64,000 nucleotides of DNA. It comes from Paraflavitalea sp. CAU 1676. Its GTDB lineage: Bacteria; Bacteroidota; Bacteroidia; Chitinophagales; Chitinophagaceae. Below the pieces are notes generated by a model that searched no databases, had not been told where the DNA came from, and worked only from the letters and a program-made list of their open reading frames with translations. The stretch spans positions 868,001 through 932,000 of the forward strand of contig NZ_JARHUJ010000003.1 in the NCBI RefSeq assembly GCF_029223285.1, given 5' to 3'. Shown here in pieces: positions 2,780 through 52,427 of the stretch. Position 1 is the stretch's first letter. Every line of letters starts with the position of its first letter. The translations under genes were made by a program, and so were the position numbers.

Positions 2780-2828
2780 TGGGTGGCCAACCGGGTTCGA
2801 ACCGGCGACCCTCAGAACCACAATCTGA
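2780..2828. repeat. attL: left 49-bp attachment core
   Basis: 49 bp identical to 52379-52427. It holds the tRNA-His 3' half from the 3' side up to the 5' strand of the anticodon stem, then diverges at 2829. It is a tRNA fragment, not a functional tRNA. Confidence 0.95.
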
Positions 2829-27872: not shown

Positions 27873-29777
27873 TTACACTATCGGGTCAGGTTGTTGTTGA
27901 GGGCCACCTGGTGCAGGCAGCTGCTTTTTTGCAACGATCTTCGGGGCCACCTCGGGCTTAACACCAAACACGAACACTGCTGCATTTTCCTTGGCCTCCG
28001 GATCCATGTTCGGGTCAGCCATCCATGCCTGCAATGCCTGAGTACCGCCGACACCGAGCTTCACTGCCAGGGGCGTATCGTCCTTCAGTCCTACCCCTTC
28101 CTCGACTTTTTTGATGGTATATGTTGTCAGGTCGCTTTTAAGCTCTTCAACCGTGTGGACCAGAATAAAGGCCATGGTTCTCGAAGTGCGCCAATCCAGG
28201 TAATAGGCCTTCCTTACGCGTTCGAATGGCGGGATCGGCCATGTCTCAAGCTCCTCATTTGTATTATGGATATAGGGCTCCACGTCCTTGAGTTTAATCA
28301 AAACGTTTAGCTTGACCTCGTCATTGTAATACTTCGCCTCATAGTACTCGACCAGTAAATCGTTCAGCACTTCCTGACTTACATTTTTCTCACGCGACTC
28401 ACTGTATTTGGTCCAGATCACGTCAGGTCCTTCGATCAAATAGCGCCGGCCGTAGTTGACTGAACTGCCTTTATACGTAGGCATCGACATGTTAAGGCGG
28501 ATGGTGAAGTCCAGTATCATCCTGTGGCGACGCTCTGCCATGTCGCTGAATGGATGAAGGCGATCGGCCTGCGGCTTCAGTTCGTCCATAATCTCGGTCG
28601 CAGTCTTCGCCGCGCCGTCTCCATTGATGGCCATGCCCTGGGATCTTACCCTTGACATCGTGCCCCATATGGTCACGTTCATCACATCCTCGAGCAGCTG
28701 CAGGTCTGAAGTCGCGATCTCGTAGTAATCCTTTGAGGGGGTAATATAGCCAGCGACGTCGGGAGTTACCTTCACATCTTCCTCGCCACCTGTCTTTTTG
28801 GGATAAGGCAAAAGTTTCACATCCGACACCTTAGTCATGGCAGACTTGCCGGTCCCCTTACAGGTCGGGCACTTATCCTCACCCTTCCAGCCGGTTCCGG
28901 AACATTCCCCGCAGTCGTCCGCGTACTCATAGTACTTCGGAAAGCCATGCATGATGTCGTGCGTGATCTTGATGCTGCCCTTCATGCAGAAGTGCTCGGC
29001 AAGTTCCACCGCTTTGTCATAGGGAGAAAGAAAGCCTACGGCAAACTGCGGATCGACTATATCGCTATTTACCAAGGCTGGTACCTCGCCAAAGAAATTC
29101 GGGATGGTGAATTTGTCCAGGATCCGCACTCGATCCTTGTCTGTGCGCTTAACGATGTAATCGTTCGCATCATCTACCAGGCGGTAGATCTGCTCGTCTT
29201 CCTTCAGACCCATTTCGCGCTTCTCTGCAGCGGTGACATTGAACACCACATAATCAAGCTTTTGCCCTTTCGGCAGATAATCGTAAATGCAGGTAATCGA
29301 TTTATAGGTAGGGTAAACGAATGAACGGCCTTGGGTTCTTGCCTGCAGGGCGTTCTGCACCGACATCATCTCCACGAATACCAGGCCATACGGATCGTCT
29401 ACAACGTGCGGGCGCCAGAACATCTCAACCCATTTGCGGATACTGTAGCCGTCCCGAACGTCCATGGCCAATGCAGCTGCGCGCTGATTGAGTTCGTCGG
29501 GAAGGTTAAAGTAGATCGATCCACCTCGTGCCGAAAACACTTTGTCGACGGGTCGATCTATACGGGCAAACAGGTCCTTGTTTGACCTGGTGTACTTTAC
29601 CCGAAGCTTGTGCAATGCCTCCTTTTCATACCCCTCGATTGTTGATAGATGCACCTCAAGGCCTTCGCCATACACGTGCCGCCGCATTGTCTTATTGTAT
29701 GCTTTGCCCTTATTGACGAGGTCCTTATTGGGGTTCCCTACAATAATGTCCTGAATCTGTTGCTGATTGAGTATCAT
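27873..29777 (-). CDS. Portal protein with DnaJ-like zinc motif insert
   Basis: 634 residues, following the large terminase and preceding the head genes, as portals do. Portal-like features include the N-terminal helical domain, a central mixed domain and a C-terminal helical region with Asp/Pro-rich end. Unusually, residues 289-311 carry two CxxCxGxG-type motifs (CGECSGTG and CPTCKGTG, Cys289/292/303/306), the pattern of a DnaJ zinc-binding module. This probably forms a zinc knuckle projecting from the portal ring. Confidence in the portal call is from size and order. Confidence 0.8.
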   Translation of the reverse strand: MILNQQQIQDIIVGNPNKDLVNKGKAYNKTMRRHVYGEGLEVHLSTIEGYEKEALHKLRVKYTRSNKDLFARIDRPVDKVFSARGGSIYFNLPDELNQRAAALAMDVRDGYSIRKWVEMFWRPHVVDDPYGLVFVEMMSVQNALQARTQGRSFVYPTYKSITCIYDYLPKGQKLDYVVFNVTAAEKREMGLKEDEQIYRLVDDANDYIVKRTDKDRVRILDKFTIPNFFGEVPALVNSDIVDPQFAVGFLSPYDKAVELAEHFCMKGSIKITHDIMHGFPKYYEYADDCGECSGTGWKGEDKCPTCKGTGKSAMTKVSDVKLLPYPKKTGGEEDVKVTPDVAGYITPSKDYYEIATSDLQLLEDVMNVTIWGTMSRVRSQGMAINGDGAAKTATEIMDELKPQADRLHPFSDMAERRHRMILDFTIRLNMSMPTYKGSSVNYGRRYLIEGPDVIWTKYSESREKNVSQEVLNDLLVEYYEAKYYNDEVKLNVLIKLKDVEPYIHNTNEELETWPIPPFERVRKAYYLDWRTSRTMAFILVHTVEELKSDLTTYTIKKVEEGVGLKDDTPLAVKLGVGGTQALQAWMADPNMDPEAKENAAVFVFGVKPEVAPKIVAKKQLPAPGGPQQQPDPIV

Positions 29778-29818: not shown

Positions 29819-31258
29819 TTAAGCTGCTGTTGAGCCCTTGCGAGGCCTGTAAACTTCGAAATACATGCCCATGATCAACATGTCCATGTAGTCGGGCGAT
29901 CTGCCCAGTAATTCCTTCATATCCTTTTTCTGCAGGATCTTCTTCGGGGCTTCATCCTTGTCGACATCGATCCGCTTTAGTACGCCCAACTCCTCGATAA
30001 TCTTTTGCTTTTGTTCCTCGGTACATATCACCCTTATTTCCCGGTTGTTGATCTTAGCAGCCAAGGTGAAGGCACATTCGCTTTTAAGGTTGCCGTAGTC
30101 CTTGATGTTGATTGCCCGGCTGCCACCGTGAAACTCTTTGATACCAACCAGGTAACTCTCCAGGTAAGCACCGAGGCCGTCACTGTCGACCACCGTCTTG
30201 CTGTGTGGCGTTGCCCTGGCCACCATCACCTTCTTCAGGTCGGTCTCAATCTCCTTCCCCTTGGCCAGCGGTTTGTCAACCGGTATCGTCACTACCATGC
30301 CCGTCCAGGCGCCAATGATGAAGCGATCGCGGCCATGCATGGCTAAGTCGGCGCTGATCCGCTTCTCCCCTTTCGCGATCACGTGCGCGTTTGTGAACAT
30401 GTCGCATATCGCATCAAACTCACACAACGCAGCAGGATCGTCGTCGTAGTCCCAGTTACCGAACAGCAGGCGCTCCTTCTTTACCTTATCATTTAGCGAC
30501 TGCAGTTGCTCCAGGTAAGTGCTTTCGTTGGCCGGGTTGTCCTGAACAAAGGCCTGAATGAACATCCGTTTCGCGGACAGGGTCTTACGCTTCCATGGGG
30601 TGTAGAACTCGTAATAAAGCCAGTTCTTCTTCGGGTTGCAGGTGATGAAGAGTAAAGGCCTCAGTCCATACTTATCGTTAAGGTGCCGGCCTATACGGCT
30701 CTTCAGGACGTCGTACGCACCAAAGTTCACCTCACCAGCTTCTTCGATCCATCCTTGCGTATACTCAAAGGACCCGAAGCGCTCGTACATTTTATCCGTA
30801 GGCAAAAACCGTAACGCAATGAAGTCAATTCGGCTGCCGTTGGAAAACTCCAGATAGTGGTCCTTTTCCCGATACTCAACCCAGTCAACATCTTCTGGAG
30901 GGCTGCCCTTGGCACCTGCGACGTAGTGTACACCATAGGTCTTAAATACCTTCTGGAAGGTCGAGAGCGTCGCGTTTCGCAGATCCGTGAGCTTATCCCG
31001 GCCGACAAAGTACCTGGTGCCTGGATAAAGCAGCGCCATGAACGTGAAGTACGTGGCACCCGTCCAACTCTTCGCACCACCTGCCGCGCCTCCATACAGT
31101 ATCTCCCGAACATCGCCTGAAAGGAGAGCTTTGAAGGCCTCCTGCTGCTTCACGTTGTTACCCCGCTCCGTGATCGTTATAAAGTCAAAGTCACCCCGTT
31201 TAAAGAGCTCCTTATTTAGTTCAATCAACGGTATGTTAAGCAGGTCGAGGCCATTCAT
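29819..31258 (-). CDS. terL: Terminase large subunit
   Basis: 479 residues. The ATPase domain has a Walker A-like loop YGGAAGGAKSW (Lys63) and an acidic Walker B region; the C-terminal half is the RNase H-like nuclease with acidic residues such as the D-S-D-G segment. It packages DNA through the portal. Its start overlaps the small terminase stop by four bases (ATGA). Confidence 0.92.
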   Translation of the reverse strand: MNGLDLLNIPLIELNKELFKRGDFDFITITERGNNVKQQEAFKALLSGDVREILYGGAAGGAKSWTGATYFTFMALLYPGTRYFVGRDKLTDLRNATLSTFQKVFKTYGVHYVAGAKGSPPEDVDWVEYREKDHYLEFSNGSRIDFIALRFLPTDKMYERFGSFEYTQGWIEEAGEVNFGAYDVLKSRIGRHLNDKYGLRPLLFITCNPKKNWLYYEFYTPWKRKTLSAKRMFIQAFVQDNPANESTYLEQLQSLNDKVKKERLLFGNWDYDDDPAALCEFDAICDMFTNAHVIAKGEKRISADLAMHGRDRFIIGAWTGMVVTIPVDKPLAKGKEIETDLKKVMVARATPHSKTVVDSDGLGAYLESYLVGIKEFHGGSRAINIKDYGNLKSECAFTLAAKINNREIRVICTEEQKQKIIEELGVLKRIDVDKDEAPKKILQKKDMKELLGRSPDYMDMLIMGMYFEVYRPRKGSTAA

Positions 31259-31878
31259 CCGGCCGATTTTTGCTTCATAGCCTGCAAGGCCTTCAAATCC
31301 GTATCACTCAAAGAACTTAAGTTGATATTGTTCACTGGTGCCGGCGCCGGCTTCTTTATTCCAAAGTGGTCAGCCAACAGGCCCAATGCCTGCAACTTCG
31401 ACCAGAGCTTCACCTTCGTAGTTGATGTACCAACCATCTTCGGGCCCTTCGGAGCCTTTGGTCCTGCAGGAACAGGTGGTGCCGCGCCGTCTTCGTCTCC
31501 TTCCTCCAGATCAATGTCGTCGTCCCCCATGCTTACATCCTCATCAACTTCAATGTGTGATATAACGGCGGCAGTATCGTCGTCAAGCTCGGTTATTGGC
31601 TTCAGCCGGCCCTCTTCATCGAACAGCCGGCGCGGATCCGAGTAAGCCACACGCGCGATCTCCAGGAGCGTCCGCTCCATGCTGATATCGAGCTTTGCGG
31701 CTACCTTTTCCTTTTTCTTAGACAGGTAAGCCTGAATATTGACTTTTGTTAACAAACGAGAAGCGATGGAAGCGGCGGTCTTTTTGGAATAGCCGGCAGC
31801 AACTGCCGCACGGGAAGCGTTGAAGTCAACGAGGTACTCGTTGCAAAAGTGTATTTGCTGATCTGATAGTGAAGTCAC
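31255..31878 (-). CDS. terS: Terminase small subunit
   Basis: 207 residues. The N-terminal 60 match Terminase_2 small subunits (SDQQIHFCNEYLVDFNASRAA and then AGYSKKTA), a DNA-recognition helix-turn-helix. A long acidic and Pro-rich linker (about 110-155) separates the core from the C-terminal terminase-binding part. It is the first gene of the late operon, with a good promoter upstream at 31910-31917. Confidence 0.9.
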   Translation of the reverse strand: MTSLSDQQIHFCNEYLVDFNASRAAVAAGYSKKTAASIASRLLTKVNIQAYLSKKKEKVAAKLDISMERTLLEIARVAYSDPRRLFDEEGRLKPITELDDDTAAVISHIEVDEDVSMGDDDIDLEEGDEDGAAPPVPAGPKAPKGPKMVGTSTTKVKLWSKLQALGLLADHFGIKKPAPAPVNNINLSSLSDTDLKALQAMKQKSAG

Positions 31879-36007: not shown

Positions 36008-36009
36008 CG

Positions 36010-36339: not shown

Positions 36340-36542
36340 TACTTCTTCTTTGGTGATTGCTTATCGTTGGGAACGTATTTGCTGACCGTGTCCTCCCATG
36401 AGGGGTTACTGTACTTCGCTGGTGGTCGCTTGAAGGAGGTTTTCTGCCGGCCTTCGTAAGGGCGCTTCCCGTTACTCCCACGGTTATTGTAGTTTGGCCG
36501 CCACCCTTCGGCGCGCGATCGTGAGTTTAGACTTGTACTCAT
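36339..36542 (-). CDS. Small basic, disordered phage protein
   Basis: 67 residues, rich in Arg, Asn, Ser and Lys, without hydrophobic core; probably disordered and nucleic-acid binding. TAATG overlap with the next gene supports translation. Function unknown. Confidence 0.5.
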   Translation of the reverse strand: MSTSLNSRSRAEGWRPNYNNRGSNGKRPYEGRQKTSFKRPPAKYSNPSWEDTVSKYVPNDKQSPKKK

Positions 36543-36562
36543 TTTGCGTTCAGTTTTGATTT

Positions 36563-37009
36563 TTAGAAATTGAATACCAGCATGGCGGCGTCGCGGCCGT
36601 GCTCATCGGCGCTACCCTTCCAGTTCGTCATCTTCCGGAATAGGCCTGCGGTAAGCTTCGTCTTGTTGTTCTTCGGTGCTACCGGTTCGAAGGGAATATT
36701 GTTGTCTTCCAGGAAAGCCTCCCAGATCGTGGCGTCACGCTTTACACTACCCACACCCTGCAGTACTTCCCGATCGGCATTCCCGAACCAGGTGCGCAGG
36801 CGGGCATCTTCAAACCTGATCATCACCTCGTTCTCGTGAACCTCGTGCAGCATCTTCACACAGTCCATTGCCCGGTGTATCGGCATCGTCTCGACGGTGA
36901 CCAATTTCTTTTCTTTCCGGTTCCATAGGGCTATGCCTGTATGGGTACCTGTATCGATGCCTATGATCCAGGTGTACTTGCTTTTCGAAGGGATTGTCTT
37001 TCGCTTCAT
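36563..37009 (-). CDS. RuvC-like Holliday junction resolvase
   Basis: 148 residues of RNase H fold: GIDTGTHTGIAL (catalytic Asp19), a strand with a conserved Glu in RFEDAR, and a C-terminal ADEHGRDAAML with Asp/His. This is the RuvC-type resolvase layout. Phage resolvases trim branched DNA before packaging. It follows the XRE regulator and replication gene. Confidence 0.75.
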   Translation of the reverse strand: MKRKTIPSKSKYTWIIGIDTGTHTGIALWNRKEKKLVTVETMPIHRAMDCVKMLHEVHENEVMIRFEDARLRTWFGNADREVLQGVGSVKRDATIWEAFLEDNNIPFEPVAPKNNKTKLTAGLFRKMTNWKGSADEHGRDAAMLVFNF

Positions 37010-37023
37010 CGTTTAGGGTTTGA

Positions 37024-37248
37024 TCAGTGACGAATGTCTTCAGTGAGTAGCCGGTAGATGTCGGTAAAGCCCAACAGGTTGACCAGCGGTACGAGGATCG
37101 TCATCTTCGGGTAGTTCGTTCCCGCTTCCCAGTGCCTTAAACGATCCTCCTGGATGCCCAGCTCTTCGGCCAGTTCCTTCTGACTCTTGCCCTGCTTTGT
37201 TCGCAGGTGAACCAGGTTATTAGCGAAAAAAAGTCGGTTTGCTTTCAT
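37024..37248 (-). CDS. XRE-family DNA-binding protein
   Basis: 74 residues with a helix-turn-helix (QKELAEELGIQEDRLRHWE) and a conserved Cro/CI-type end. Next to the replication gene, it may regulate the middle genes. Target unknown. Confidence 0.75.
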   Translation of the reverse strand: MKANRLFFANNLVHLRTKQGKSQKELAEELGIQEDRLRHWEAGTNYPKMTILVPLVNLLGFTDIYRLLTEDIRH

Positions 37249-37256
37249 GGTTTGAA

Positions 37257-38513
37257 TTATCGGGTTGGTACTGTTTGAAGTTTATTGGTTTTCATGATCC
37301 CGAAGGCCTCCCATACGGCCAGGCATTTCAGCGCAGGTATGTCGGCTTTTCGCTCGTCAGTGTTTTTGCCTTCGGTGTAGGCCTGCAGCAGGCGCAGCTC
37401 GTTGCCTTGGTTGCTTCCGTTCAATTGGCGCTTTCGTTTCTCGACCATGCTCTCGTAGTATCCCTTGTCCATGATCCCGCGGCCGACCAGCTGCTCGTAG
37501 TGATCCGCTGTTACTACTTTCAGCTGCAGGCCTCCCTCCAGGTACCGGTCGTACAGGTACTGGATGTCCGTCTGTTCGGCCTTCTTGGATTCTTTCGCGC
37601 GCGCCGTCTGGTTTTGGATCACTTTGTCGAACTGCGTTTCGAGATTCTTCAGCAGGAAATGTTCTTTCAGCCACGGATCCGCATATGCACCATCGAGGAA
37701 GTAGCGCAGGCGCTGCGGCGCCGTGGTTTCGCTCCACTCCTTCCCTGCTTTCTCTGCACGCTTTTTCAGCATGCCAATGAGGCGCTTGAAGATCTTCGGG
37801 TCATCCCGTACGAAGCTGGGCTCCACACCAAACTTTTCTTTCCCGAAGTCAAACCACACCTTCACGAGCTGATCCCAATACGGCTCGGTCTCCTCGGCTT
37901 TGTCTTTTGCCCCTTTCCTACCCTCCTTTCCTGCACGCGACGGCTTTGCCGGCGCACCTCCGGTAGGACTCTGTTCTAATCTCATCTCCTCTACTCTACT
38001 CTCTTCTTCTCTACTCTGTGTATTCTTCGGCTGATTTTCGGAATTGTTCGGCTGATCTATTCCTTTCTTCGGCTGAACTATCACTAAATTCAGCGGAACA
38101 TCATCTGAGAATGATAACAGCAGGTAATTTTCGTGTATGGAGACCCTCGTACCGGCCGACCTGCGTTCAGCTGTCGCCTTGACGAATGTGTCCTGCATCA
38201 TATCACTGGTAAGTACTCCGAACATCTCATATACGACCTGGTTGAACAGATCACGCCTGAGGCACCCGTCAATAACTTCCTTTACCTTGGTTACCTTCTT
38301 CTTACAGAATTCCGATGCAAACAATTCCAGCTCTTCCTTATCGTTACAATCAAAATAGTATCCCCACTTCTCGTACGCATAGTCCAGCAAACAACTCCAG
38401 ATGTAATACCCATCACTATCAAACTCGTTATATAGCAGCCTGACCTTCTTGTTACGTATGTGGCCGCTGTTCATCCTGTAAAAGCTTATCCCTTGTTTAG
38501 CGGTCCGTCCCAT
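37257..38513 (-). CDS. DUF4373 (Lin1244/Lin1753-like) replication-initiation protein
   Basis: 418 residues. The N-terminal 110 (GISFYRMNSGHIRNKKVRLL) form the DUF4373 domain used by phage replication initiators; the middle is charged and the C-terminus is a helical domain of the DnaT/DnaB-interacting type. It probably starts phage DNA replication. The start overlaps the upstream gene by 28 bp. Confidence 0.75.
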   Translation of the reverse strand: MGRTAKQGISFYRMNSGHIRNKKVRLLYNEFDSDGYYIWSCLLDYAYEKWGYYFDCNDKEELELFASEFCKKKVTKVKEVIDGCLRRDLFNQVVYEMFGVLTSDMMQDTFVKATAERRSAGTRVSIHENYLLLSFSDDVPLNLVIVQPKKGIDQPNNSENQPKNTQSREEESRVEEMRLEQSPTGGAPAKPSRAGKEGRKGAKDKAEETEPYWDQLVKVWFDFGKEKFGVEPSFVRDDPKIFKRLIGMLKKRAEKAGKEWSETTAPQRLRYFLDGAYADPWLKEHFLLKNLETQFDKVIQNQTARAKESKKAEQTDIQYLYDRYLEGGLQLKVVTADHYEQLVGRGIMDKGYYESMVEKRKRQLNGSNQGNELRLLQAYTEGKNTDERKADIPALKCLAVWEAFGIMKTNKLQTVPTR

Positions 38514-38881
38514 AGGTTGATTTGTTCGTGTCTGCGTTTTAACTCCTCAATTGAATAGCCCAGCTGGTTAAGCAGGATCTTCACTGCGTGGTCAACCTGG
38601 TGCTCGGCAACCTTGGCCTTCGGTAGCTTACCCCGCTGGCCAGCCCAGTACTCCTTCTGCAGGGTGCGCATGGTATCTACCAGGTAGATTAAGCGCTCCA
38701 TGTGCTTTCGGGTCATCTCCTGGTTGTACAGCATCTGCTTCCATACCCAGCTGCCGACCTGCGTGGCTTTCTTCTGCGTCAGCGCAGGATCGCCGTTAAA
38801 GGCACTCAGCTGCTCATGAATCGCCAAAACCAGTTGCTCCCAGGTGATTGCTACTTGCTCCTTTTTTGCCTGCCCAGACAT
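38486..38881 (-). CDS. Hypothetical phage protein
   Basis: 131 residues, almost entirely helical. Located between the replication gene and the PRTRC cassette, with a 28-bp overlap of the replication gene start. Not recognised. Confidence 0.65.
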   Translation of the reverse strand: MSGQAKKEQVAITWEQLVLAIHEQLSAFNGDPALTQKKATQVGSWVWKQMLYNQEMTRKHMERLIYLVDTMRTLQKEYWAGQRGKLPKAKVAEHQVDHAVKILLNQLGYSIEELKRRHEQINLWDGPLNKG

Positions 38882-38883
38882 GG

Positions 38884-39225
38884 TTAAAGTTTGATACAGA
38901 ACTTTTTTCTCAGGGCCTCGATGTCAGCACCCGGCTTGTCGTATACGATCGTTTTATGATTGAGCCGATACGAAACCATCCCGGTAAGATCAACCTTGCG
39001 GGTCTCATACTTCTTGGTGCTGGCCCTACCAAATGTTAACTGGCGCGGCGCCGAGGCCACCTTAACCTCCTTCTTTGGAGAGTTGATCTTTACCTTCCTC
39101 GGCCCCTCTTTTCCTCGAGGTTCAGAGTATACCGCCTTCATCATTTTTGCTACGACATCGGGCGGAAGTTTATTCTTCGCAGGCCTGGCATTCTTGCCAG
39201 TGGCCATTGCAGCTACTTTAGACAT
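38884..39225 (-). CDS. Small basic protein at the PRTRC cassette end
   Basis: 113 residues from the ATG at 39225, which overlaps the ThiF gene stop (TAATG). Lys-rich N-terminal half, more structured C-terminus (VSYRLNHKTIVYDKPG). Not recognised. Its tight coupling with ThiF suggests it belongs with the cassette. Confidence 0.6.
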   Translation of the reverse strand: MSKVAAMATGKNARPAKNKLPPDVVAKMMKAVYSEPRGKEGPRKVKINSPKKEVKVASAPRQLTFGRASTKKYETRKVDLTGMVSYRLNHKTIVYDKPGADIEALRKKFCIKL

Positions 39226-39980
39226 CACTTTATTTTTATCGGGTTTACAATCATGGTGGCCAGGTTGAGGTAGCAGCCGTGAACTGTTATCATACCTTCC
39301 CGAAACAGCTTCCAAAGAAGGTTGGCGCCCAGCTGGGCAAGTGTGCTGTTGATGAACAGATCCTGTCTGTTGATAGACTGCGCTACGGAGCAGCTGGGGC
39401 CCTCATCTTCCTTTTTCACTTTCTTGAGCTCAGGGAATTGCTTAATGACCGTTGGCAGGATCCGTGCAGTCTTGTGTTCACTTTTTGGCTGCTTACAATA
39501 TGACAGGGTACCCAAAACAGCCTGGCCGGTAGTTTGCCCATTGCCCATATCCAACCAGTAGTATTGAACATTCATGGGTTCGGCGAGCTTTGGGAACTTC
39601 ATGTTACCCGCGATCGTAACCCTCCCGGCGGCTGTGTCGATACAGGTGATCAATATGTTGGCCGGTGCGTCGGTGTACTGTTCAGGTCTGGCCTCCCAGT
39701 TTGTTCCGAAAAACCGATTGACCCTGGTCACAAGGACAGTTGCTTTATTCAGGCCCAAATCCGCCGGCGAGAACAGCTGGCGACCAATGTTTGCCATGGT
39801 CACTTCATCAGCGTCCCACGCGTACACGTGTAACCCAGGGTGGCTAAGCGCGATCAGCGTCTCGTTCATTCGCGCCAGACAGGTGAGCACCTGCGAACCG
39901 GTACCGCCAAGGCCAACGAGATTGACGGTGATCTTATGCTGCGGGTTAAGCAGGTACGGTGCTGTATAATGTACTTTCAT
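39225..39980 (-). CDS. PRTRC system ThiF-family protein (E1-like)
   Basis: 251 residues. Rossmann-type nucleotide site GLGGTGS (residues 23-29), an acidic loop WDADEVTMANIGRQ that matches the E1/ThiF ATP-binding region, and a SCSVAQSINRQ motif around Cys197, the region where adenylating E1-like enzymes place their catalytic Cys or Arg/Gln residues. E1-like enzymes adenylate the C-terminus of ubiquitin-like proteins and pass them on. It overlaps gene B by four bases. Assigned to PRTRC by sequence and neighbourhood. Confidence 0.8.
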   Translation of the reverse strand: MKVHYTAPYLLNPQHKITVNLVGLGGTGSQVLTCLARMNETLIALSHPGLHVYAWDADEVTMANIGRQLFSPADLGLNKATVLVTRVNRFFGTNWEARPEQYTDAPANILITCIDTAAGRVTIAGNMKFPKLAEPMNVQYYWLDMGNGQTTGQAVLGTLSYCKQPKSEHKTARILPTVIKQFPELKKVKKEDEGPSCSVAQSINRQDLFINSTLAQLGANLLWKLFREGMITVHGCYLNLATMIVNPIKIK

Positions 39981-40705
39981 AACAGGTTTGCGAGTTTGAG
40001 GTGCTTCTTTCCTGCCATGTAGGGCAGCAGCTCCTGATTATCGAATGCGTTATTCGTACCGATGAGGCCCTTCCAGATCAGGTTGAGGTTCGTACGTGTC
40101 GGGTTTTGCGCATGAGCGAGGTGCGTGAATTCACTCTTCCAGAACATCGCTTCCCAGTACTCCATTTCAGCCTGATAGGTGCGCGTAGTGGGTTTCTTCA
40201 CTTTAGCCGAACCGAGGCACACATCGCCATCACTACTTACATTGTGGTACGGTGCGTTGTACAATTCTGTGGTCAGAGCTGGGCGTTCATCGGATGTCAG
40301 CGCGTACACGTAAAGACCTTTTCGTTTCACCTGGTAGAGCATGGCTGGCACCATGGCCTCACCTGACGGAATATGCAGCCCATCCACGAAAAACAAGTGT
40401 CGTTTCTCTGCAGGCCTGAACCAGGTCATATCGTAGTACCCACCCGGCCGGACATCGAAATGGATCATATTGGCAGGGATGATGCCCCCGATCTGTACGC
40501 GGTTCTGCCTTTCATCGAAAAACACGTCGACAAGGCCCTGAATGGTCTCCTGCTTTAAAGGTTTGCCCTCCAAGAGCTGACCTTTATCGTTGAAAGCATG
40601 ACTTTCGAGGTATGCGTCGTGCCATTCGTCCATTCCATTGGTGTACACCACAATTGCGAGTGACGGCCGGTAAGTCTTCATCAGTGTTTCCGTCAATTGA
40701 TTCAT
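39977..40705 (-). CDS. PRTRC system protein B (E2-like)
   Basis: 242 residues. The segment SSDGDVCLGSAKV around Cys163 resembles the active-site loop of E2 ubiquitin-conjugating enzymes, and a preceding F-F-V-D-G strand region fits the UBC-like fold described for PRTRC-B-type proteins. In this model it accepts the Ub-like protein from ThiF and transfers it. Overlaps both neighbours. The E2 role is from published family analyses of the PRTRC group and has not been tested here. Confidence 0.75.
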   Translation of the reverse strand: MNQLTETLMKTYRPSLAIVVYTNGMDEWHDAYLESHAFNDKGQLLEGKPLKQETIQGLVDVFFDERQNRVQIGGIIPANMIHFDVRPGGYYDMTWFRPAEKRHLFFVDGLHIPSGEAMVPAMLYQVKRKGLYVYALTSDERPALTTELYNAPYHNVSSDGDVCLGSAKVKKPTTRTYQAEMEYWEAMFWKSEFTHLAHAQNPTRTNLNLIWKGLIGTNNAFDNQELLPYMAGKKHLKLANLL

Positions 40706-41820
40706 TTCTTAAAGGTTTCAGTGAGCTCCCAAGCGCGGGAAAAGAATTGCGATAACTCGTCTGGCCACGTGGCCTTTTTCCTCAAGGCATCAAAGTCGTA
40801 ATCCTTTGTATTGGTGAAAATGTTCAGGGCTGCTACCGGATCCTGTGTGCCTTCCTGGGCCATGCCGTCAAGCATATACTCGCAATGAGCCGTAACCTTG
40901 TCGTTTAGGTCCCAGGCAACGTTTAGTTGTAGGTCCAAATCCAGGTAGGGATGATCCACTTCGCCGGCGGGGATGTAGGTAAATTCGTGGACGCTGTGTC
41001 CTCGAGTAAGCAGCTGGGCTCCCTGGTATATGAGGTTGGCTATCGGATTTCCAGCCTTATATCGTCGCGCCCTCTTTAATAGTTCCGCGGGCTTCATCAC
41101 TGGTGCGCGCTTGATCCGCTGCAGGTAATCGTGAATGTATCCCTTCTCGTACAGGTGAATGCATTCTAATGCCTCAGCCCGCCCCTTTTCATCATCTTCG
41201 GCCAAATAATCATCCATCGATTCAGCTGCATAACCAAGTTCGCCGCTGTCCCACAATCCAACCCCCGCAGACTGTGAAAACGTCCTGATGAAAGACAGGT
41301 ACAGGTCGTGCAAAGGCTTGTTGCACTTTGCCAGCTTCAGCAGAACCGGGCCCACTTCGAGGCAATGCCACATCCGTTGAAAATCGCAGAACTGATAAAC
41401 CACGATGAAAAAGACTCCCTTTGAATGCTCGATGTTGAACTCGAAATCTGCCGGTATCAAAGCTCGCAGGCCTCGTAATGCCATGGTAAGCGCGGTAGCA
41501 GGGGAAAGGCCCGCCGCCAATGGATCAAGGGAAAGCTTTTCCTTTTTGATTTTGGCCAACATGTTCCTGTAAATCGTCCAGATCTCGTCGCACATATCGT
41601 TGACCTCGTCCTCTTCAACGGTCGCGTTCGACTGGTTACAGAAAACATAGATGCCGGACTTAGTCTCAAGCTTTACGCTATGAATGGAATCTGCGATGGT
41701 GGCGGCAGCCGTCGCTCCTTCTGCTCCTCGTTGGCATACAACCTTCGATCCCGGCTTTCGGCCTGTAACAGCCTTCCGATATTTGTGTGCAGCTCTTTTG
41801 TGTTCCATTTTCGCCGGCAT
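40702..41820 (-). CDS. PRTRC system protein F-like
   Basis: 372 residues, mostly helical, with a basic N-terminus. It sits between C and B, where PRTRC protein F is usually found, and its length is in the right range. I do not see a diagnostic motif, so the name rests on neighbourhood. Confidence 0.6.
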   Translation of the reverse strand: MPAKMEHKRAAHKYRKAVTGRKPGSKVVCQRGAEGATAAATIADSIHSVKLETKSGIYVFCNQSNATVEEDEVNDMCDEIWTIYRNMLAKIKKEKLSLDPLAAGLSPATALTMALRGLRALIPADFEFNIEHSKGVFFIVVYQFCDFQRMWHCLEVGPVLLKLAKCNKPLHDLYLSFIRTFSQSAGVGLWDSGELGYAAESMDDYLAEDDEKGRAEALECIHLYEKGYIHDYLQRIKRAPVMKPAELLKRARRYKAGNPIANLIYQGAQLLTRGHSVHEFTYIPAGEVDHPYLDLDLQLNVAWDLNDKVTAHCEYMLDGMAQEGTQDPVAALNIFTNTKDYDFDALRKKATWPDELSQFFSRAWELTETFKK

Positions 41821-41839
41821 GACTTCTTAAGATCTTTTT

Positions 41840-42061
41840 TCATCCTTTGGTTCCTACTGTGGTTTTGAACGTGTATACAGCCTTATTGCCGTCGGGCACC
41901 GGGCCGGAGATCGTGGAGGTGGTCAGTTCCGGATAGCTGCCAGAATGGAACTGCAAAACCTCTTCGATCGTCATATCGGGGTTGGGATCAGGCAGGATGA
42001 TTTCCTTGCCATCCTTCTTCATCTTGAAAGCCCTTTTGAGGCTGGTCACTTGTAAAGCCAT
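41840..42061 (-). CDS. PRTRC system protein C (ubiquitin-like)
   Basis: 73 residues, compact beta-grasp-type pattern (N-terminal strand LQVTSLKRAF, central helix region, closing strands AVYTFKTTV) ending in Gly-Thr-Lys-Gly. Published analyses of PRTRC describe protein C as ubiquitin-like. A C-terminal Gly is the expected point of activation by an E1-like enzyme. It lies 19 bp from gene F. Confidence 0.75.
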   Translation of the reverse strand: MALQVTSLKRAFKMKKDGKEIILPDPNPDMTIEEVLQFHSGSYPELTTSTISGPVPDGNKAVYTFKTTVGTKG

Positions 42062-42081
42062 TGTATTTGGAATTTTAAAGT

Positions 42082-42588
42082 TTACGCTTCGGTTTGCTCA
42101 TCATCGCCAGTCTCTTCGGCCGCGTCTTCAGCCAGGTTTGCGGCCTCGAGTTCTGCGTCGACTTCCTGGTCTGTTTTATCGTCGTCAGCCGGCTGGTCGA
42201 ACATTGATACCTCGCGCGGGGCCGCAGGCTTTGGCTTTGCTGGCTTTTCCTTCTTCTCTGGCTTTTGGGCTGCCTGCTTGGCCTTGCCTTTATCCTTGCC
42301 CTTTTTGGCAGCTGCAGGGCTTTCCTTTTTAGCCGGCTGCTCCTTCTTTTCCGAAGATTCAGTGGGTAGATCCTGAACGGACAGACCTGCCTGCGGTTCA
42401 GGCTTTTTTGTGATCGCCTGCAGGAAACCGTCTGCAAGCTCTTCAGGAGTACCGGTGAGGATCTTCGGAGTGAGGCCGGTGCGTGCACCTGGGCGCACGT
42501 CGATCGTAAGCTTGTCATCCTTCCGGACGATCCGGAGGGTCAGGTCGGCATCATCGCCGAGGTTGTGTATTTGGTGAAAGAAACTCAT
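42082..42588 (-). CDS. PRTRC system protein E
   Basis: 168 residues. The N-terminal 60 residues (FFHQIHNLGDDADLTLRI, then PKILTGTPEELADGFLQAI) match PRTRC-E; the rest is a Lys/Ala/Pro-rich linker with an acidic tail, probably disordered. First gene of the cassette, 13 bp after the sliding clamp. Confidence 0.75.
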   Translation of the reverse strand: MSFFHQIHNLGDDADLTLRIVRKDDKLTIDVRPGARTGLTPKILTGTPEELADGFLQAITKKPEPQAGLSVQDLPTESSEKKEQPAKKESPAAAKKGKDKGKAKQAAQKPEKKEKPAKPKPAAPREVSMFDQPADDDKTDQEVDAELEAANLAEDAAEETGDDEQTEA

Positions 42589-42601
42589 AGTTGATGTGGT
42601 T

Positions 42602-43684
42602 TTAATCGATGAGTAAAGGCATTATCAGTCCGAGGTAATTCGAATCCTCCTGAGAGCTCAATAGAACCGCTCTGCGGGGCGAATCGATGTGCAGGGCTAC
42701 ACGATCATACTCCACCTGAGAAAGTAGCGTAATGAGCCTCTTTGGGTTTAAGGAGAAGAGTTTAGTGTCGCCAGAGTACACCCCTGCCACAACACTTTCG
42801 ACTTCGCGCTCGAGGTCCATGTCGTTCGCCGTGATCTTCATGCGATCAGGATTCGGGTGCAGCAGGCAACTCTTTGAATTGCCCAGCAGGACCTTTTCCA
42901 GCGAGGTGATCAACTCGTTACGGTTGACCTCCAAATTGGCCTCGTGGTTGGGAATAGCTACCCTGTAATCTGGAAACTTGCTTTCCTGTCTGGTGATGAT
43001 CACGGTCAGGTTCTCGGCCTTGAAAGCTGCGTGCTTCTTTTGCCAGTACAGTTCCGTGTCGCCGGCGCCATCCAAGGCTGCAGCCAGTTTTTGTGAAACC
43101 AAAACCTGGTCTTTAGGGATCGCAGGATCACAAACCACTTCGTAACGGTAAAGGATTTGCGCGTCGGTGGCCACGATCGTGATCTTGCCATCTTCGATAT
43201 CGAGGCAGGAGTAAGTCATTGAAGGGCGCAGGTCGTCGTGACTGCAGGCCTGCATCGATGCAATCACCCGCTTCATGGTTTCCGGGCTGAGCTTGACGCT
43301 GTTCTTTTTAGGGATGTTCGGGAGCTTCGGGAAATCGGCAACCGGTTCCAGGCTCTTCAAGTCGTACACATCCTCGCCTGCTACTATCCGCGCACGCTTC
43401 TCCGCGGGATGCTCGATCGTGATCGGCATATGACCAGTGAGAGCGACAACCTTCTTCAGGAAGTCGAATGGTAATAGGATTTCAAAGGGCCCTTCTTCGG
43501 ATTCGCAGGGACATTTGTAGATGATAGTGAGCTCCAGGTCGGTGGTGACCAGCTCGACCTCATTTCCACTCACCCGGCACAGCAAGTTGGAAGTTGCAGG
43601 GATGACAGGCTTTGCCGGTACCGCCTGACCCAGTTTCTTCAGCGCAGGTTTTAAGTGCTCCTGGCTGATGATCATTTTTTTCAT
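42602..43684 (-). CDS. Phage DNA sliding clamp (DnaN-like)
   Basis: 360 residues from the ATG at 43684; MKKMIISQEHLKPALKKLG is a typical clamp N-terminus. The three-domain clamp pattern is visible, with the VATDAQILYRYEV segment and a C-terminus ending GLIMPLLID, in place of the usual MPMRL ending. Such clamps tether a polymerase to DNA. A phage-encoded beta clamp is uncommon. It is directly upstream of the PRTRC genes, in the same transcript. Confidence 0.8.
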   Translation of the reverse strand: MKKMIISQEHLKPALKKLGQAVPAKPVIPATSNLLCRVSGNEVELVTTDLELTIIYKCPCESEEGPFEILLPFDFLKKVVALTGHMPITIEHPAEKRARIVAGEDVYDLKSLEPVADFPKLPNIPKKNSVKLSPETMKRVIASMQACSHDDLRPSMTYSCLDIEDGKITIVATDAQILYRYEVVCDPAIPKDQVLVSQKLAAALDGAGDTELYWQKKHAAFKAENLTVIITRQESKFPDYRVAIPNHEANLEVNRNELITSLEKVLLGNSKSCLLHPNPDRMKITANDMDLEREVESVVAGVYSGDTKLFSLNPKRLITLLSQVEYDRVALHIDSPRRAVLLSSQEDSNYLGLIMPLLID

Positions 43685-44006
43685 GCTTAAGCTTTTTGTA
43701 ACGTTTGTAAATCCAGGTGTTGCCATGTTGTTGGCGGATGATCGAGAGGTTCAGCGTGATTCGGCCTTTCCGGTCTTCTTTGAACAGGTAGCGCAGATCC
43801 TTTACTTGGGTGGTCTCCTGCTGCTGCTCGCCGAACAGCTCGGCCTGCGCCCTTAATGGCTGGAAAAATCTGATTGGGTAGTAAGCGACGACTTCGGCTC
43901 GGTCGTTGTAGACCTTGAAGACCTCGTCCCCTTCCAGGTTCTTGCTGTACCGCATGTAGCGGCCGGTAAGCAGGTGATCGAAGCAAGCGCGTACATACTG
44001 GTTCAT
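43560..44006 (-). CDS. Hypothetical protein overlapping the clamp gene
   Basis: 148 codons, of which about the last 41 overlap the clamp gene start by 125 bp in another frame and look like read-through of the clamp sequence. The convincing part is residues 1 to about 107 (MNQYVRACFDHLLTGRY onward). A lost stop codon or an indel is possible. Function not recognised. Confidence 0.55.
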   Translation of the reverse strand: MNQYVRACFDHLLTGRYMRYSKNLEGDEVFKVYNDRAEVVAYYPIRFFQPLRAQAELFGEQQQETTQVKDLRYLFKEDRKGRITLNLSIIRQQHGNTWIYKRYKKLKHEKNDHQPGALKTCAEETGSGGTGKACHPCNFQLAVPGEWK

Positions 44007-44009
44007 GGC

Positions 44010-44420
44010 CTAAACAACTGCTTCCTCCGGAGCGTAGGTGGTGCGATCCTTCTTTGTCACCTGCAGGCGGCTGATCGATAGGCAAAGTGCCTTGGCCTCC
44101 ACCGGGTGTGTCTCGATCCAGTGGTGACACTCAGGGCAGACAGCCAGGAAATTGTCCACGTCGGTCAGGTCGTCACCGATCCGGCCGGCCATATGGTGAA
44201 TATGCTCAGCCTTGCCGGAACATCCACATACGTTAGCCTGGCAGTCAGGATTAGCCTGCAGGAACCTCTTGCGCAGACCTGTGTATTGGCGTTCCTGCTT
44301 TGCCCGTTTCTTCGAAGCGCGACGGATTGGGGTACGTACCGGCATTTCCTTCTTTGCCCGGCGGCATTCACCTTGGCAGGTAGCGTGATTACAATTCCGG
44401 CTTGCGAGTACTGTTGCCAT
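44010..44420 (-). CDS. HNH endonuclease-like protein
   Basis: 136 residues from the ATG at 44420; the listed upstream TTG is not needed. The C-terminal half has the HNH signature: AEHIHHMAGRIGDDLTD, NFLAVCPECHHWIETHP, with paired Cys before it (CQANVCGC). HNH proteins in phages act in packaging or recombination, or as homing nucleases. The location in the replication region rather than next to terminase is less usual for a packaging HNH. Confidence 0.8.
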   Translation of the reverse strand: MATVLASRNCNHATCQGECRRAKKEMPVRTPIRRASKKRAKQERQYTGLRKRFLQANPDCQANVCGCSGKAEHIHHMAGRIGDDLTDVDNFLAVCPECHHWIETHPVEAKALCLSISRLQVTKKDRTTYAPEEAVV

Positions 44421-44422
44421 GA

Positions 44423-44689
44423 TCAAAACAGTGTTTGTATAGATGAAGATTTTACAGTCTTTCCGTGAGATCGAGGTTTTACTGTGGCCAGCTGGGGTGC
44501 AGTGTTCGTTGAGTCAATTTCGGTGAGCGCTTCGGTCAGCTTCTCGGTCGGTACGGAAAACCGTATTCCGTCTTTCCCTTCTACGATCTGAACGTTGCCG
44601 CGATCGCTGATCCGTGTTACCGGATCGCCCGCTGCGCCGTACTGCCGGCCGCCGAAATTGCTGTATATGTTACACTGCAGGTAAGGCAT
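44423..44689 (-). CDS. Hypothetical phage protein
   Basis: 88 residues, polar C-terminus. Three bases after the preceding gene and two before the HNH gene start, so co-transcribed. Not recognised. Confidence 0.6.
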   Translation of the reverse strand: MPYLQCNIYSNFGGRQYGAAGDPVTRISDRGNVQIVEGKDGIRFSVPTEKLTEALTEIDSTNTAPQLATVKPRSHGKTVKSSSIQTLF

Positions 44690-44692
44690 GAC

Positions 44693-45085
44693 TTAGTAGG
44701 GGTAATCAGGTCCTTCGTATCCGGTTTCATCATCGTCGTCTTCGGCTGCCGGCGTTGCGATCGGTGCACATGAAGAAGTAAGAAGAGCCTTTTTAAGGGG
44801 TTCGTTCTTATCGAGCATTGCTCGCACGTCCCAAATCTGGACCGGCGTGGCCGTAAAGCTTTCAGCCAGTTCCTTCGCGGTCTTTTCATCGACAGGTGTC
44901 ACGCTATAGATTGCAGACGTACCATAGAAGCGAGAAAAAGCAGGTTGCTTGCTAGTTTCGGGGATATCCACGCGAAGCATTGCGCCGCCGAAAACTGTTT
45001 GCTCTGAGCACAGGCCTGCGAGCTTTACGTGGCCCATGAGTTCGACCAGTGCCCAGGACTCAAAAGCGGTAGTTTCTTTATTCAT
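44693..45085 (-). CDS. Conserved phage protein of unknown function
   Basis: 130 residues. The pattern (WALVELMGHVKLAGLCSEQ, then FYGTSAIYSVTPVDE) recurs in phages of several phyla, without known function. The acidic C-terminal tail (DDDDET) is notable. Confidence 0.65.
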   Translation of the reverse strand: MNKETTAFESWALVELMGHVKLAGLCSEQTVFGGAMLRVDIPETSKQPAFSRFYGTSAIYSVTPVDEKTAKELAESFTATPVQIWDVRAMLDKNEPLKKALLTSSCAPIATPAAEDDDDETGYEGPDYPY

Positions 45086-45104
45086 TGGTTATTGATTAAG
45101 AAGG

Positions 45105-45326
45105 TTATTCCGGGATGTAGGTCTTTGTGGTGTTGATCACATCAGCGCTATCCTTACTCTTGCCATCGCGAATGAAAAAGCCGTCACGAATCAACTCTTT
45201 ATAGTCAGCCTCTTGCATCACTATTTGCACGCACCGACCACCGGTATACATGTTGCACCTGGCAAAACCGTCTTTGATGTTTTTCACATCGATCTGAACA
45301 TAGTTGTCTGGCATGTATGCTCCCAT
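45105..45326 (-). CDS. Hypothetical small phage protein
   Basis: 73 residues (MGAYMPDNYVQIDVKN). A second Met at 45314 is possible. First protein gene after the tRNA-like region. Not recognised. Confidence 0.55.
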   Translation of the reverse strand: MGAYMPDNYVQIDVKNIKDGFARCNMYTGGRCVQIVMQEADYKELIRDGFFIRDGKSKDSADVINTTKTYIPE

Positions 45327-45429
45327 TTTGCAAGCTTTTAATTGTTTTTATGGCAAGGGAAAAAGAGCCCGGCCGTGAGGCAGAGAGCTGCCGCCGGGGA
45401 GATTGCTTGCCATATGAAAAAAGTAATGT

Positions 45430-45500
45430 GGAGAAAGAGGGATTCGAACCGACGACCTTCACCGTATCAGGGTGCTGCTCTACCTCTGAGCTACTTCTCC
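45430..45500 (-). tRNA. tRNA-Ile(GAT), phage-encoded
   Basis: Minus-strand cloverleaf: acceptor GGAGAAG pairing with CTTTCTCC, D-arm GCTC...GAGC, anticodon loop CTGATAC giving anticodon GAT, and a TTCGAAT T-loop. The T-stem has two mismatches, so the molecule may be partly degenerate. Confidence 0.65.
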
Positions 45501-50996: not shown

Positions 50997-51018
50997 CGCC
51001 GGTGCCCCCTTATTTTTT
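50979..51018 (+). terminator. Rho-independent terminator between convergent genes
   Basis: Perfect 8-bp stem GGGGGCAC (50979-50986) / GTGCCCCC (51002-51009), followed by a T-rich tail to 51018. It ends the plus-strand gene and overlaps its stop; it also lies at the 3' end of the integrase gene. Confidence 0.7.
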
Positions 51019-52270
51019 AGTTCGCATGGCCAAATCCCACCACTGTCTTCTTCAGTTTATCGAGTTTTCGCTGCTTCTCTCCTACCGCATACACCATGGC
51101 CATGCCTGCAGTGGTGTGGCCGGTGGCAGCCTGCGCAGTTTCGATATCGAACATGGCAGCAACGTTATCAGTATGGAGGTGTTTAAGGGAATAGAAATCT
51201 TTATCGATATTCAGGCCCCCCCGATCAACGGGAGCTTTGACATGGCGGGCCCAGCGGCGCCCGATCTGCTCCGGCCTGATCGTAGTTGGCCCGGGTGCCA
51301 GGTTCACACTGAACAGATAATCACCGGCAGCCGCCTGGTCCCAAACCTCCTGCCACAAGGTCAACACATCAGCAGGAATAGGCCGTACGCTTTCGGTATA
51401 CTCCTTGCCCTTTTTGATCAGGACAATGAACTCTTGTTTTTTGAGGTTGATCTTGTTATTCTTCCGCAGTGATAGCATTTCAGTTGTGCGTGAGCCGGAC
51501 CGGTAAAAGATCTGCATGTATCGCCAGAAATTGTAACACTTGCTTTTCAGGTGCGCATCGATCTTCAGCTGCTCCTCGATGGTCAGGATAGCCCTTACCT
51601 TTTTGGTTTTCTTCCTGGTCGGAATATCCCTGGCCGGGTTGCCGTCGATGGCTTCGATGGTCAGCAGTTCCCGGAAAAGCATGCTCAGGTAAGCCTTGTA
51701 CTTGTTGTACCGACTGTTGCTCCAGTTGGGATTATTCTTTTCGCACCTGTCCAGGATGTACTTTATGTGCTTTGTGCGGATCTCGCAGATCGGCAGCTCG
51801 TCGTACCGTACCCGGAACTTCGTTTCCACCAGCTGGCCGGCGGCTTCGGCAACTCCCTTTATCACGCTTTTGATATCGAGCTTCACCTGGTGTACTGCCA
51901 CTACCCTATTCCGGGCAGCTTCCAACGCCTGAATAAAAAGGGTGTCGGGTCTGATCTCGTACTCCAGAATCTCGTCAGCAGGGGCCATATACTGCCGGGT
52001 AATCGGGTTCCATCCCTGTTTATCGAGCCGGTCGAGTTCCTCGGCTAAAAGGTGCTTTGTGGCCTTCTGCCGGTCCTCGACGGTACTCCACTCATTCATG
52101 CCGCGGAGCTGGGACTGGTGTCCCCATTTCGGGGTGTCCTTAAAAGCGGGATCGTAGAACCTGTAGGTGATTCTCCAGGGCTCCGAAGCGGTAGCCCTTT
52201 TTGTGTTCCAATTTTTTGGGGTGACTGTTAAGGCGCTGCGCGAGCAGCCATTGAAAGTAGTAGAAAGCAT
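51017..52270 (-). CDS. int: Tyrosine recombinase (integrase)
   Basis: 417 residues from the ATG at 52270; the listed 52279 start is a TTG. N-terminal arm-binding and core-binding domains precede the catalytic domain: Arg in FYRSGSRTTEML, the YSLKHLHT box where the usual HxLRH Arg position is Lys, GHTTAG and the nucleophile Tyr in MVYAVGEK. The family is common in Bacteroidota phages. It lies 109 bp inside attR and must act on the tRNA-His core. The altered HxxR box is the usual state in this subfamily. Confidence 0.85.
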   Translation of the reverse strand: MLSTTFNGCSRSALTVTPKNWNTKRATASEPWRITYRFYDPAFKDTPKWGHQSQLRGMNEWSTVEDRQKATKHLLAEELDRLDKQGWNPITRQYMAPADEILEYEIRPDTLFIQALEAARNRVVAVHQVKLDIKSVIKGVAEAAGQLVETKFRVRYDELPICEIRTKHIKYILDRCEKNNPNWSNSRYNKYKAYLSMLFRELLTIEAIDGNPARDIPTRKKTKKVRAILTIEEQLKIDAHLKSKCYNFWRYMQIFYRSGSRTTEMLSLRKNNKINLKKQEFIVLIKKGKEYTESVRPIPADVLTLWQEVWDQAAAGDYLFSVNLAPGPTTIRPEQIGRRWARHVKAPVDRGGLNIDKDFYSLKHLHTDNVAAMFDIETAQAATGHTTAGMAMVYAVGEKQRKLDKLKKTVVGFGHAN

Positions 52271-52272
52271 AA

Positions 52273-52320
52273 GCGGCAATTAAAAGTGTGACATAATGTG
52301 TGACATCTTGTAATTGCCGC
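52273..52320. repeat. Inverted repeat enclosing the right arm site
   Basis: Perfect 10-bp inverted repeat GCGGCAATTA (52273-52282) / TAATTGCCGC (52311-52320) around an inner GTGACATAATGTGTGACA (52288-52305) that is identical to the left-end copy. It spans the integrase start region, so it may control int and bind the recombinase. Confidence 0.6.
52288..52305. promoter_or_regulatory. Candidate integrase arm-type site (right)
   Basis: GTGACATAATGTGTGACA, same sequence and orientation as the left-end copy at 2919-2936. Confidence 0.6.
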
Positions 52321-52378: not shown

Positions 52379-52427
52379 TGGGTGGCCAACCGGGTTCGAA
52401 CCGGCGACCCTCAGAACCACAATCTGA
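52379..52427. repeat. attR: right 49-bp attachment core
   Basis: Identical to 2780-2828. It is part of the intact tRNA-His, so the phage supplies the tRNA 3' half and restores the gene after integration. Confidence 0.95.

Follow-up and report, generated by a model that had tools for sequence, protein, structure and literature searches.

A PRTRC cassette for predicted ubiquitin-like conjugation beside a sliding clamp gene in a Paraflavitalea prophage, with a candidate clamp-binding motif in protein E

The closest described relatives of the system considered here are the PRTRC gene clusters of proteobacterial plasmids, arranged in the order ParB-E-C-F-B-A-ThiF, and the type 6d systems of Iyer et al. 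2006 (PMC1779556). The available text of that paper describes a small ubiquitin-like protein with a C-terminal glycine, an E1-like protein, an E2-like protein and a fast-diverging helical protein, together with a JAB gene that is always adjacent where it is not fused. Its type 6d row lists Pelobacter propionicus, Polaromonas, Rhodoferax and Bacteroides, and PRTRC plasmids were found here in the first three of these taxa. PRTRC cassettes are also mentioned in PMC10434189, PMC7466150 and PMC3826726, the last of which places one in an integrative and conjugative element (ICE) of Acidithiobacillus caldus; in the accessible portions of this literature, cassettes are predicted or mentioned without a tested target. 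Here, we describe a PRTRC cassette in a 64,000-nucleotide stretch of the genome of Paraflavitalea sp. CAU 1676 (assembly GCF_029223285.1, contig NZ_JARHUJ010000003.1, positions 868,001 to 932,000), hereafter the window. The cassette-bearing element is a temperate phage, apparently an intact prophage in a tRNA-His gene, and the cassette lies immediately downstream of a gene for a second sliding clamp, DnaN, the host having a chromosomal DnaN of its own.

Five consecutive open reading frames (ORFs) on the reverse strand (39225-42588) correspond, by ORF listing and profile matches, to PRTRC E, C, F, B and ThiF. The E, C, B and ThiF families and the order E-C-F-B-ThiF are those of the proteobacterial plasmid clusters, from which the window differs in having neither the JAB protein A nor PRTRC ParB, in having DnaN in the upstream position and in residing in a temperate phage. 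Unlike the window, type 6d is presented in the accessible text of PMC1779556 with no mention of an E-like protein, DnaN or a phage. Burkholderia phage BgVeeders33 (OK665841) carries E, C, B and ThiF in the same order as the window but, unlike it, has A, has no DnaN found alongside, and encodes a C protein (L003, 16821-17210) with a 62-residue extension after GTKG.

The initial annotation had read all five ORFs as PRTRC genes, and searching each protein against the NCBIfam and Pfam models bore this out for E, C, B and ThiF. ThiF matched TIGR03736 (E = 7e-77, 258 bits, above the cut-off of 144.75) and also NF006395 (E = 2e-6), and C matched both TIGR03738 (E = 4e-18, 65 bits, above the cut-off of 46) and PF14454 Prok_Ub (E = 8e-25, 87 bits against a cut-off of 25). 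B matched PF14460 Prok-E2_D (E = 5e-35, 121 bits against a cut-off of 25) and fell narrowly under the cut-off of TIGR03737 (E = 2e-35, 121.9 bits against 131.45), while E matched PF19556 (E = 1e-11, 45 bits against a cut-off of 26) and fell under that of TIGR03741 (E = 3e-6, 27 bits against 38). For the protein in the F position, NCBIfam, Pfam and PHROGs gave no match at E<=1, and it is placed by its position and by a weak profile similarity: aligned with hhalign, its 73-member profile shows some likeness to eight F-position proteins of plasmids (E = 1.3e-4, probability 54%, where two unrelated pairs gave E values of 0.5 and 0.69). A purpose-built hidden Markov model (HMM) recovers this F family in 151 of 191 sources, and in an AlphaFold2 model (predicted local distance difference test score, pLDDT, 89.2) its fold beyond residue 55 is confident and mostly helical, with no Foldseek match in the PDB at E<=0.001. 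The PRTRC family also includes a protein D. The motifs originally described, GDVCLGS around Cys163 of B, GLGGTGS and SCSVAQSINRQ in ThiF and the C-terminal glycine of C, are all present as given.

The order DnaN-E-C-F-B-ThiF recurs, as traced with purpose-built HMMs, in the window and in many relatives. These were collected by a ThiF alignment search that gave 67 loci in viral contigs and 284 loci in genomes, the best 80 of the latter being used; whole-record searches covered 50 of the 67 viral records. The spacing from DnaN to ThiF is operon-like, with intergenic gaps of 13-20 nt and overlaps of 4 nt at F/B and B/ThiF; a scan of 36000-46500 for sigma-70 promoters and terminators, other promoter types lying outside its scope, found nothing above shuffled sequence. 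Removal of 15 identical rows, four duplicates, short rows and loci lacking B left 146 distinct ThiF+B rows; in these, DnaN lies directly upstream of E in 25 loci, the window counted, and does not in 90, with 31 unscorable. In 23 of the 24 relatives, DnaN and E are separated by -14 to +32 nt, and in the remaining one by 108 nt. On a quick ThiF+B tree (LG+G4, with several long branches) the adjacency label changes at least eight times among the scored rows; a group count over all rows gives nine changes, of which well-supported branches force five, whereas shuffling gave a mean of 23.5, each change being either a gain or a loss. The DnaN-E pairing is present in several cassette lineages and is recurrent, or old with repeated loss, and not obligatory. 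DnaN was found in 25 of the 50 viral records and is the neighbour of E in 21 of these; in L059, L063, L068 and L096 it is present away from E. Terminase is seen among viral records both with and without DnaN.

DnaN and the cassette appear from their sequences to have diverged together: DnaN distances correlate with those of ThiF (Mantel r 0.60) and B (0.67), neither value being reached in 5000 permutations, while ThiF and B correlate with each other at 0.83. A C-terminal hydrophobic-M/L-P element, which we take to be part of the binding pocket of the clamp, is kept in 22 of 25 phage clamps. Relative to its nearest relative, L005, the window has amino-acid identities of 82% in C, 66% in F, 78% in B, 79% in ThiF and 72% in DnaN; the ratio of nonsynonymous to synonymous differences (pN/pS) is 0.18-0.28 for these five genes, with synonymous sites near saturation, which argues for purifying selection on them. 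In 64 loci where DnaN is not adjacent, a scan of 115 proteins encoded upstream of E found members of DUF932 (7), Toprim_Crpt (4), DEAD (3), ResIII (3) and SSB (2). The DUF932 proteins in this position in L160, L170, L177 and L182 are mutually alike.

After about 75 residues, E turns into a charged tail of variable length in which a short hydrophobic motif is conserved. In a set of 102 E proteins of 100 residues or more, reduced from 135 by removing near-copies, the pattern [SDTNG][LMI]F occurs in 84 tails, whereas 500 shuffles gave a mean of 14.0 and a maximum of 24; the corresponding figures are 58 against a mean of 4.8 and a maximum of 11 for [SD][LM]F, and 24 against a mean of 1.2 and a maximum of 5 for Qx[SDTNAG][LMI]F. 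Some E proteins end exactly in the motif (SQTSLF in L012, TQSSLF in L110 and HPSLF in L010). This tail motif looks like the bacterial clamp-binding pentapeptide QL(S/D)LF, which is described at the C-terminus, and as possibly more variable, in the accessible text of PMC9690074; as in that pentapeptide, glutamine is the residue most often found at F-4. It is kept in 22 of 25 loci with adjacent DnaN and in 58 of 71 without, an equality that fits use of the host clamp where no clamp is linked. Thirteen E proteins were taken from annotated records of 12 plasmids and of phage BgVeeders33, seven of them sharing their source with members of the set of 102; the tripeptide occurs in six of the 13, four times near the C-terminus and twice further inside; the remainder include related hydrophobic ends such as ASLL, DELF and DDLQLF. 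We consider it moderately likely that E binds a clamp. The initial annotation had guessed that the neighbouring clamp mattered, and this guess is strengthened by the conserved DnaN-E adjacency and the motif.

The residues expected of a conjugation system are strongly conserved. Cys163 and Asn155 of B are each invariant in 161 of 161 relatives, Cys197 of ThiF is kept in 165 of 165 readable rows (one further row being incomplete there), and C ends in glycine in 136 of 140 proteins, with GTKG in 119. By the Prok_Ub model, C would be a beta-grasp modifier with a free C-terminal glycine. Compared with PDB sequences, the ThiF profile matched E. coli ThiF and UBA5 (best E = 1.2e-4), that of B matched nothing at E<=1, and that of C gave nothing meaningful (best E = 1.1). 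The predicted structure of B (pLDDT 92.7) consists of a helix, a run of strands, a loop bearing the Asn and Cys, and C-terminal helices, an order that is presumably compatible with an E2. The pattern N-[LIV]-x(3,4)-G-x-[LIVP]-C-[LIV], which we take to be that of an E2, fits 30 of 162 B proteins compared with one of 17,173 other ORFs, and by inspection it fits B of the window; the Asn-...-Cys-x-Gly motif is kept in all eight plasmid B proteins checked. A Foldseek search of the viral database BFVD with B gave four matches at E<=0.001, each to a viral protein that is either unnamed or uncharacterised, and the Prok-E2_B model matched nothing in 149 genomes of the order, a result that carries no information, its controls likewise being without a match. 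The assignment of B as an E2 rests on the Pfam model and on the significant E2 profile matches reported for its family in the accessible text of Iyer et al. 2006 (PMC1779556). From these matches and the invariant cysteine, which agree with the E2-like character first proposed for B, it is likely that B acts as an E2; independent support for the fold did not come from Foldseek against the PDB or from hhalign. Ubiquitin-like activation and transfer by the cassette as a whole appears quite likely.

As the initial annotation had noted, the window has neither the JAB peptidase nor ParB, two PRTRC components usually found on proteobacterial plasmids. The model for protein A (TIGR03735) matched nothing in the genome and none of the 50 viral records, although it matched four of six control records, and Prok-JAB matched none of 25 viral records; this departs from the constant JAB adjacency of type 6d. 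A is likewise absent, by model, from two Bacteroidota plasmids with annotated PRTRC genes (L001 and L187). For PRTRC ParB there was no match above cut-off in the genome, with three weaker ParB-like matches on other contigs, and none was annotated beside the Bacteroidota and Deinococcus clusters examined. The suggestion that the system is minimal is sound in the sense that it is JAB-less, but this is no peculiarity of the present copy, being the form of all 50 viral contigs and of the two Bacteroidota plasmids. BgVeeders33 has A, so the lack of JAB does not extend to every phage cassette. The only Prok-JAB match found in the genome falls on another contig (L193, 6640-9641), in what reads as a cysteine synthase-JAB-ThiS-ThiF-like cluster.

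The presence of A is associated with the form of the C-terminus of C. Five of nine clusters with A encode a C protein with a tail beyond GxKG (L003, L200, L202, L203 and L207) and four do not (L185, L186, L190 and L205), whereas no tail is found in five plasmid clusters that lack A, a lack based on the model for L001 and L187 and on annotation only for L188, L201 and L204. The 137 clusters without a match to a purpose-built A model had no clear tail; among them, L113 was flagged by a regular expression with three residues though otherwise ending in glycine, no end could be recognised in L177, and A is in fact present in L190, where it spans the beginning of the record. The clusters compared are related, and these counts are not independent. 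A view that C tails are unlinked to JAB, based on L185 and L186, was dropped once plasmids were added and tails were seen only with A. Because of this restriction, A is probably a processing peptidase, and the C protein of this phage would be born mature. Such a link would explain how the phage versions manage without a JAB peptidase. It is new here, as are the absence of A from the 50 viral contigs, the DnaN-E adjacency and the conserved motif in the tail of E.

These observations can be joined in a mechanism in which a phage-borne, JAB-less PRTRC E1-E2 cascade is tethered by E to a clamp, a reading that we favour tentatively and rate somewhat short of even. ThiF would adenylate the C-terminal glycine of C and take C as a thioester, probably on Cys197; C would then pass to Cys163 of B, which would attach it to a lysine of a target. 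As C would be made with its glycine exposed, no processing peptidase would be needed. E would provide the address: its N-terminal domain may dock the machinery, and its flexible tail, through the clamp-binding motif, would place E on a sliding clamp, here the phage's own DnaN. The most likely targets would be the clamp or proteins on it, although it is possible rather than probable that a clamp or replisome protein receives the C tag. The tag might regulate traffic at the phage fork, whether through exchange of polymerases, unloading of the clamp or the exclusion of host partners; in outline this would resemble ubiquitin or SUMO on PCNA. In PCNA ubiquitination a ubiquitin tag acts at the sliding clamp, and the proposed logic is shared; no homology is claimed. 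A bolder version, which we think rather unlikely, would make PRTRC the prokaryotic counterpart of PCNA ubiquitination, with E recruiting the cascade, B conjugating C to the clamp or a clamp-bound protein, clamp-carrying phages having locked both into one operon, and the plasmid JAB protein trimming or reversing the tag. If the mechanism were true, the replication clamp of bacteria and phages would be a site of ubiquitin-like signalling, in parallel to PCNA; the DnaN-E pairing and, most usefully, the tail of E give a concrete, testable lead on PRTRC function.

Several results weigh against this mechanism. Glutamine at F-4 of the E motif is found in 24 of 88 proteins, a count biased toward glutamine since a site with it was preferred where a protein had several, and the motif of the window itself, EVSMF, has none. 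Counts over whole proteins show the relaxed pattern in 55 of 94 F and 41 of 102 B proteins as well, and [SD][LM]F, as DLF, is conserved in 91 of 102 ThiF proteins, in which a clamp-binding role for it is unlikely; such tripeptides can therefore be kept for other reasons. Ninety of the 115 scoreable loci have no adjacent DnaN, and no DnaN was found in 25 of the 50 viral records, many of which are fragments, so that a linked clamp is not required. No DnaN lysine is conserved throughout, the best being kept in 20 of 25. For B, the structure model had no Foldseek match in the PDB at E<=0.001, no E2 was among the best 50 of 316 matches, and hhalign found no match to six Prok-E2_A proteins. The histidine downstream in B, absolutely conserved according to the accessible text of PMC1779556, is kept in only 142 of 161 relatives.

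The same E1-E2 chemistry might instead put the tag on host proteins, such as the polymerase, clamp, nucleoid or partition proteins, and so hand the fork to the phage, with E only localising the machinery. The host clamp could be the dock, and the persistence of the E motif in loci without adjacent DnaN agrees with this, but the position of the clamp beside the cassette in most viral records that have one points to a role for the element's own clamp, and we judge tagging of host proteins unlikely. A role in replicon maintenance would connect PRTRC with plasmid partition or copy control, retained by phages and conjugative elements, the clamp contact sensing newly replicated DNA. PRTRC ParB is annotated in the stretches of nine of 11 Pseudomonadota and Thermodesulfobacteriota plasmids, cassettes occur on Bacteroidota plasmids and, in the accessible text of PMC3826726, on the A. 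caldus ICE, and DUF932, Toprim_Crpt, DEAD, ResIII and SSB proteins stand upstream of E in some loci where DnaN is not adjacent. Yet the prophage integrates at a tRNA gene, its cassette sits among phage replication genes and the host genome has no PRTRC ParB above cut-off, which makes a maintenance role distinctly unlikely here.

Two further accounts depart more widely from tethered conjugation. C might be a sulfur carrier in the manner of ThiS-ThiF, thiocarboxylated and used by F or B in nucleotide or tRNA modification; the ThiF match to NF006395 is compatible with this, as is the statement in the accessible text of Iyer et al. 2006 (PMC1779556) that the helical protein may be an enzyme. The invariant cysteine of an E2-family protein fits such chemistry poorly, C ends mostly in T-K-G rather than Gly-Gly, and a scan of ten proteins of the cassette and its neighbourhood against NCBIfam and Pfam matched no sulfurtransferase family, so that we regard a sulfur carrier as quite improbable. 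ThiS, for comparison, ends in Gly-Gly. Still less probable is an anti-defence or superinfection-exclusion module placed in a replication operon by chance. Bacterial cGAS ubiquitin-like conjugation acts in anti-phage defence (PMC10097602, as far as accessible), the BilABCD system is described with an E2 (PMC11354881, likewise), and here a phage carries such a cassette; but B, C, E and F match no PADLOC family at E<=0.01, the spacing with DnaN is tight and a replication initiation gene lies downstream.

The setting of the cassette (Table 1) agrees with the initial annotation in both respects. Its carriage by a phage is evident from the attachment (att) repeats, integrase, terminase, portal and further virion genes, the virion genes all being located between the 49-bp repeats; together these delimit a seemingly complete temperate phage of some 49.6 kb. 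Its place in a replication module is confirmed by DnaN on one side and the replication initiation gene on the other. DnaN matches phrog_947 (E = 1e-47) and PF00712 above cut-off, and TIGR00663 (E = 5e-35) under it. For the protein encoded immediately downstream of ThiF, NCBIfam and Pfam gave no match at E<=1, and a purpose-built HMM for the next gene matched six sources, counting the window and duplicates.

Table 1. Coordinates of the cassette, neighbouring genes and prophage landmarks in the window
Feature	Position	Strand	Remarks
attL, left prophage end	2780..2828		49-bp direct repeat, exact copy of 52379-52427
Portal protein	27873..29777	-	phrog_7376 E=3e-36
Terminase large and small subunits	29819..31878	-	phrog_979 and phrog_2; phrog_51
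Phage replication initiation protein (Lin1244_N)	37257..38513	-	PF14297 E=4e-17, phrog_2562 E=1e-27
Conserved phage gene, downstream	38486..38881	-	weak phrog_15937 E=5e-4
Gene downstream of ThiF, same run of genes	38884..39225	-	present in relative L005
PRTRC ThiF	39225..39980	-	TIGR03736; E1-like, nucleotide site GLGGTGS, Cys197
PRTRC B	39977..40705	-	PF14460; E2-like, Cys163; 4-nt overlaps with F and ThiF
PRTRC F-position protein	40702..41820	-	position and weak profile similarity; fast-evolving, mostly helical
PRTRC C	41840..42061	-	PF14454, TIGR03738; 73-residue ubiquitin-like protein with GTKG end
PRTRC E	42082..42588	-	PF19556; N-terminal domain, charged tail, clamp-binding-like motif EVSMF at residues 126-130
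Phage sliding clamp DnaN	42602..43684	-	start probably at 43684, judged by inspection; the listed ORF extends to 43726
Tyrosine integrase	51017..52279	-	PF00589 E=1.3e-8; adjoins attR
attR	52379..52427		49-bp direct repeat over 3' part of tRNA-His gene 52380-52454

PRTRC cassettes are widespread in metagenomic viral contigs and nearly absent from deposited phages. Besides the 67 viral-collection contigs with a relative, only four of 50,697 deposited phage records match ThiF, two of them also matching B and C, whereas 377 of 72,556 plasmid records match a PRTRC-type ThiF. Some of the viral contigs may be other mobile elements, because terminase (phrog_2) was found in 20 of the 50 searched; together with BgVeeders33, they nevertheless remove the impression that carriage by a phage is unusual. 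A PRTRC ThiF above cut-off occurs in nine of 298 genomes of the order, that of the host counted, and the prophage holds the sole such match in the 8.84-Mb host genome. In the literature surveyed, mostly without subscription journals and preprints, no paper title concerned phage PRTRC and no pairing of PRTRC with a clamp was found; its prophage and bacteriophage portion, as far as accessible, names PRTRC only in PMC3826726, on an ICE. Among plasmids, a Deinococcus plasmid (L188, 5013-10675) has one PRTRC cluster with two ThiF genes and two B-like matches, and on a Tunicatimonas plasmid (L187, 12975-17259) a multiubiquitin-ThiF system and a Pol V-like pair lie near the PRTRC cluster.

The prophage also contains two tRNA genes on the reverse strand, for Ile (45428-45500) and Met (46286-46358). 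Adjoining attL, a gene at 1015-2688 (-) encodes a beta-lactamase-family protein that is also matched by the tail-protein family phrog_382. Just beyond the prophage, 57202-60015 (-) encodes a SMEK-NACHT-pentapeptide protein whose N-terminus matches PADLOC PDLC02399 (E = 3.5e-39), possibly a defence gene.

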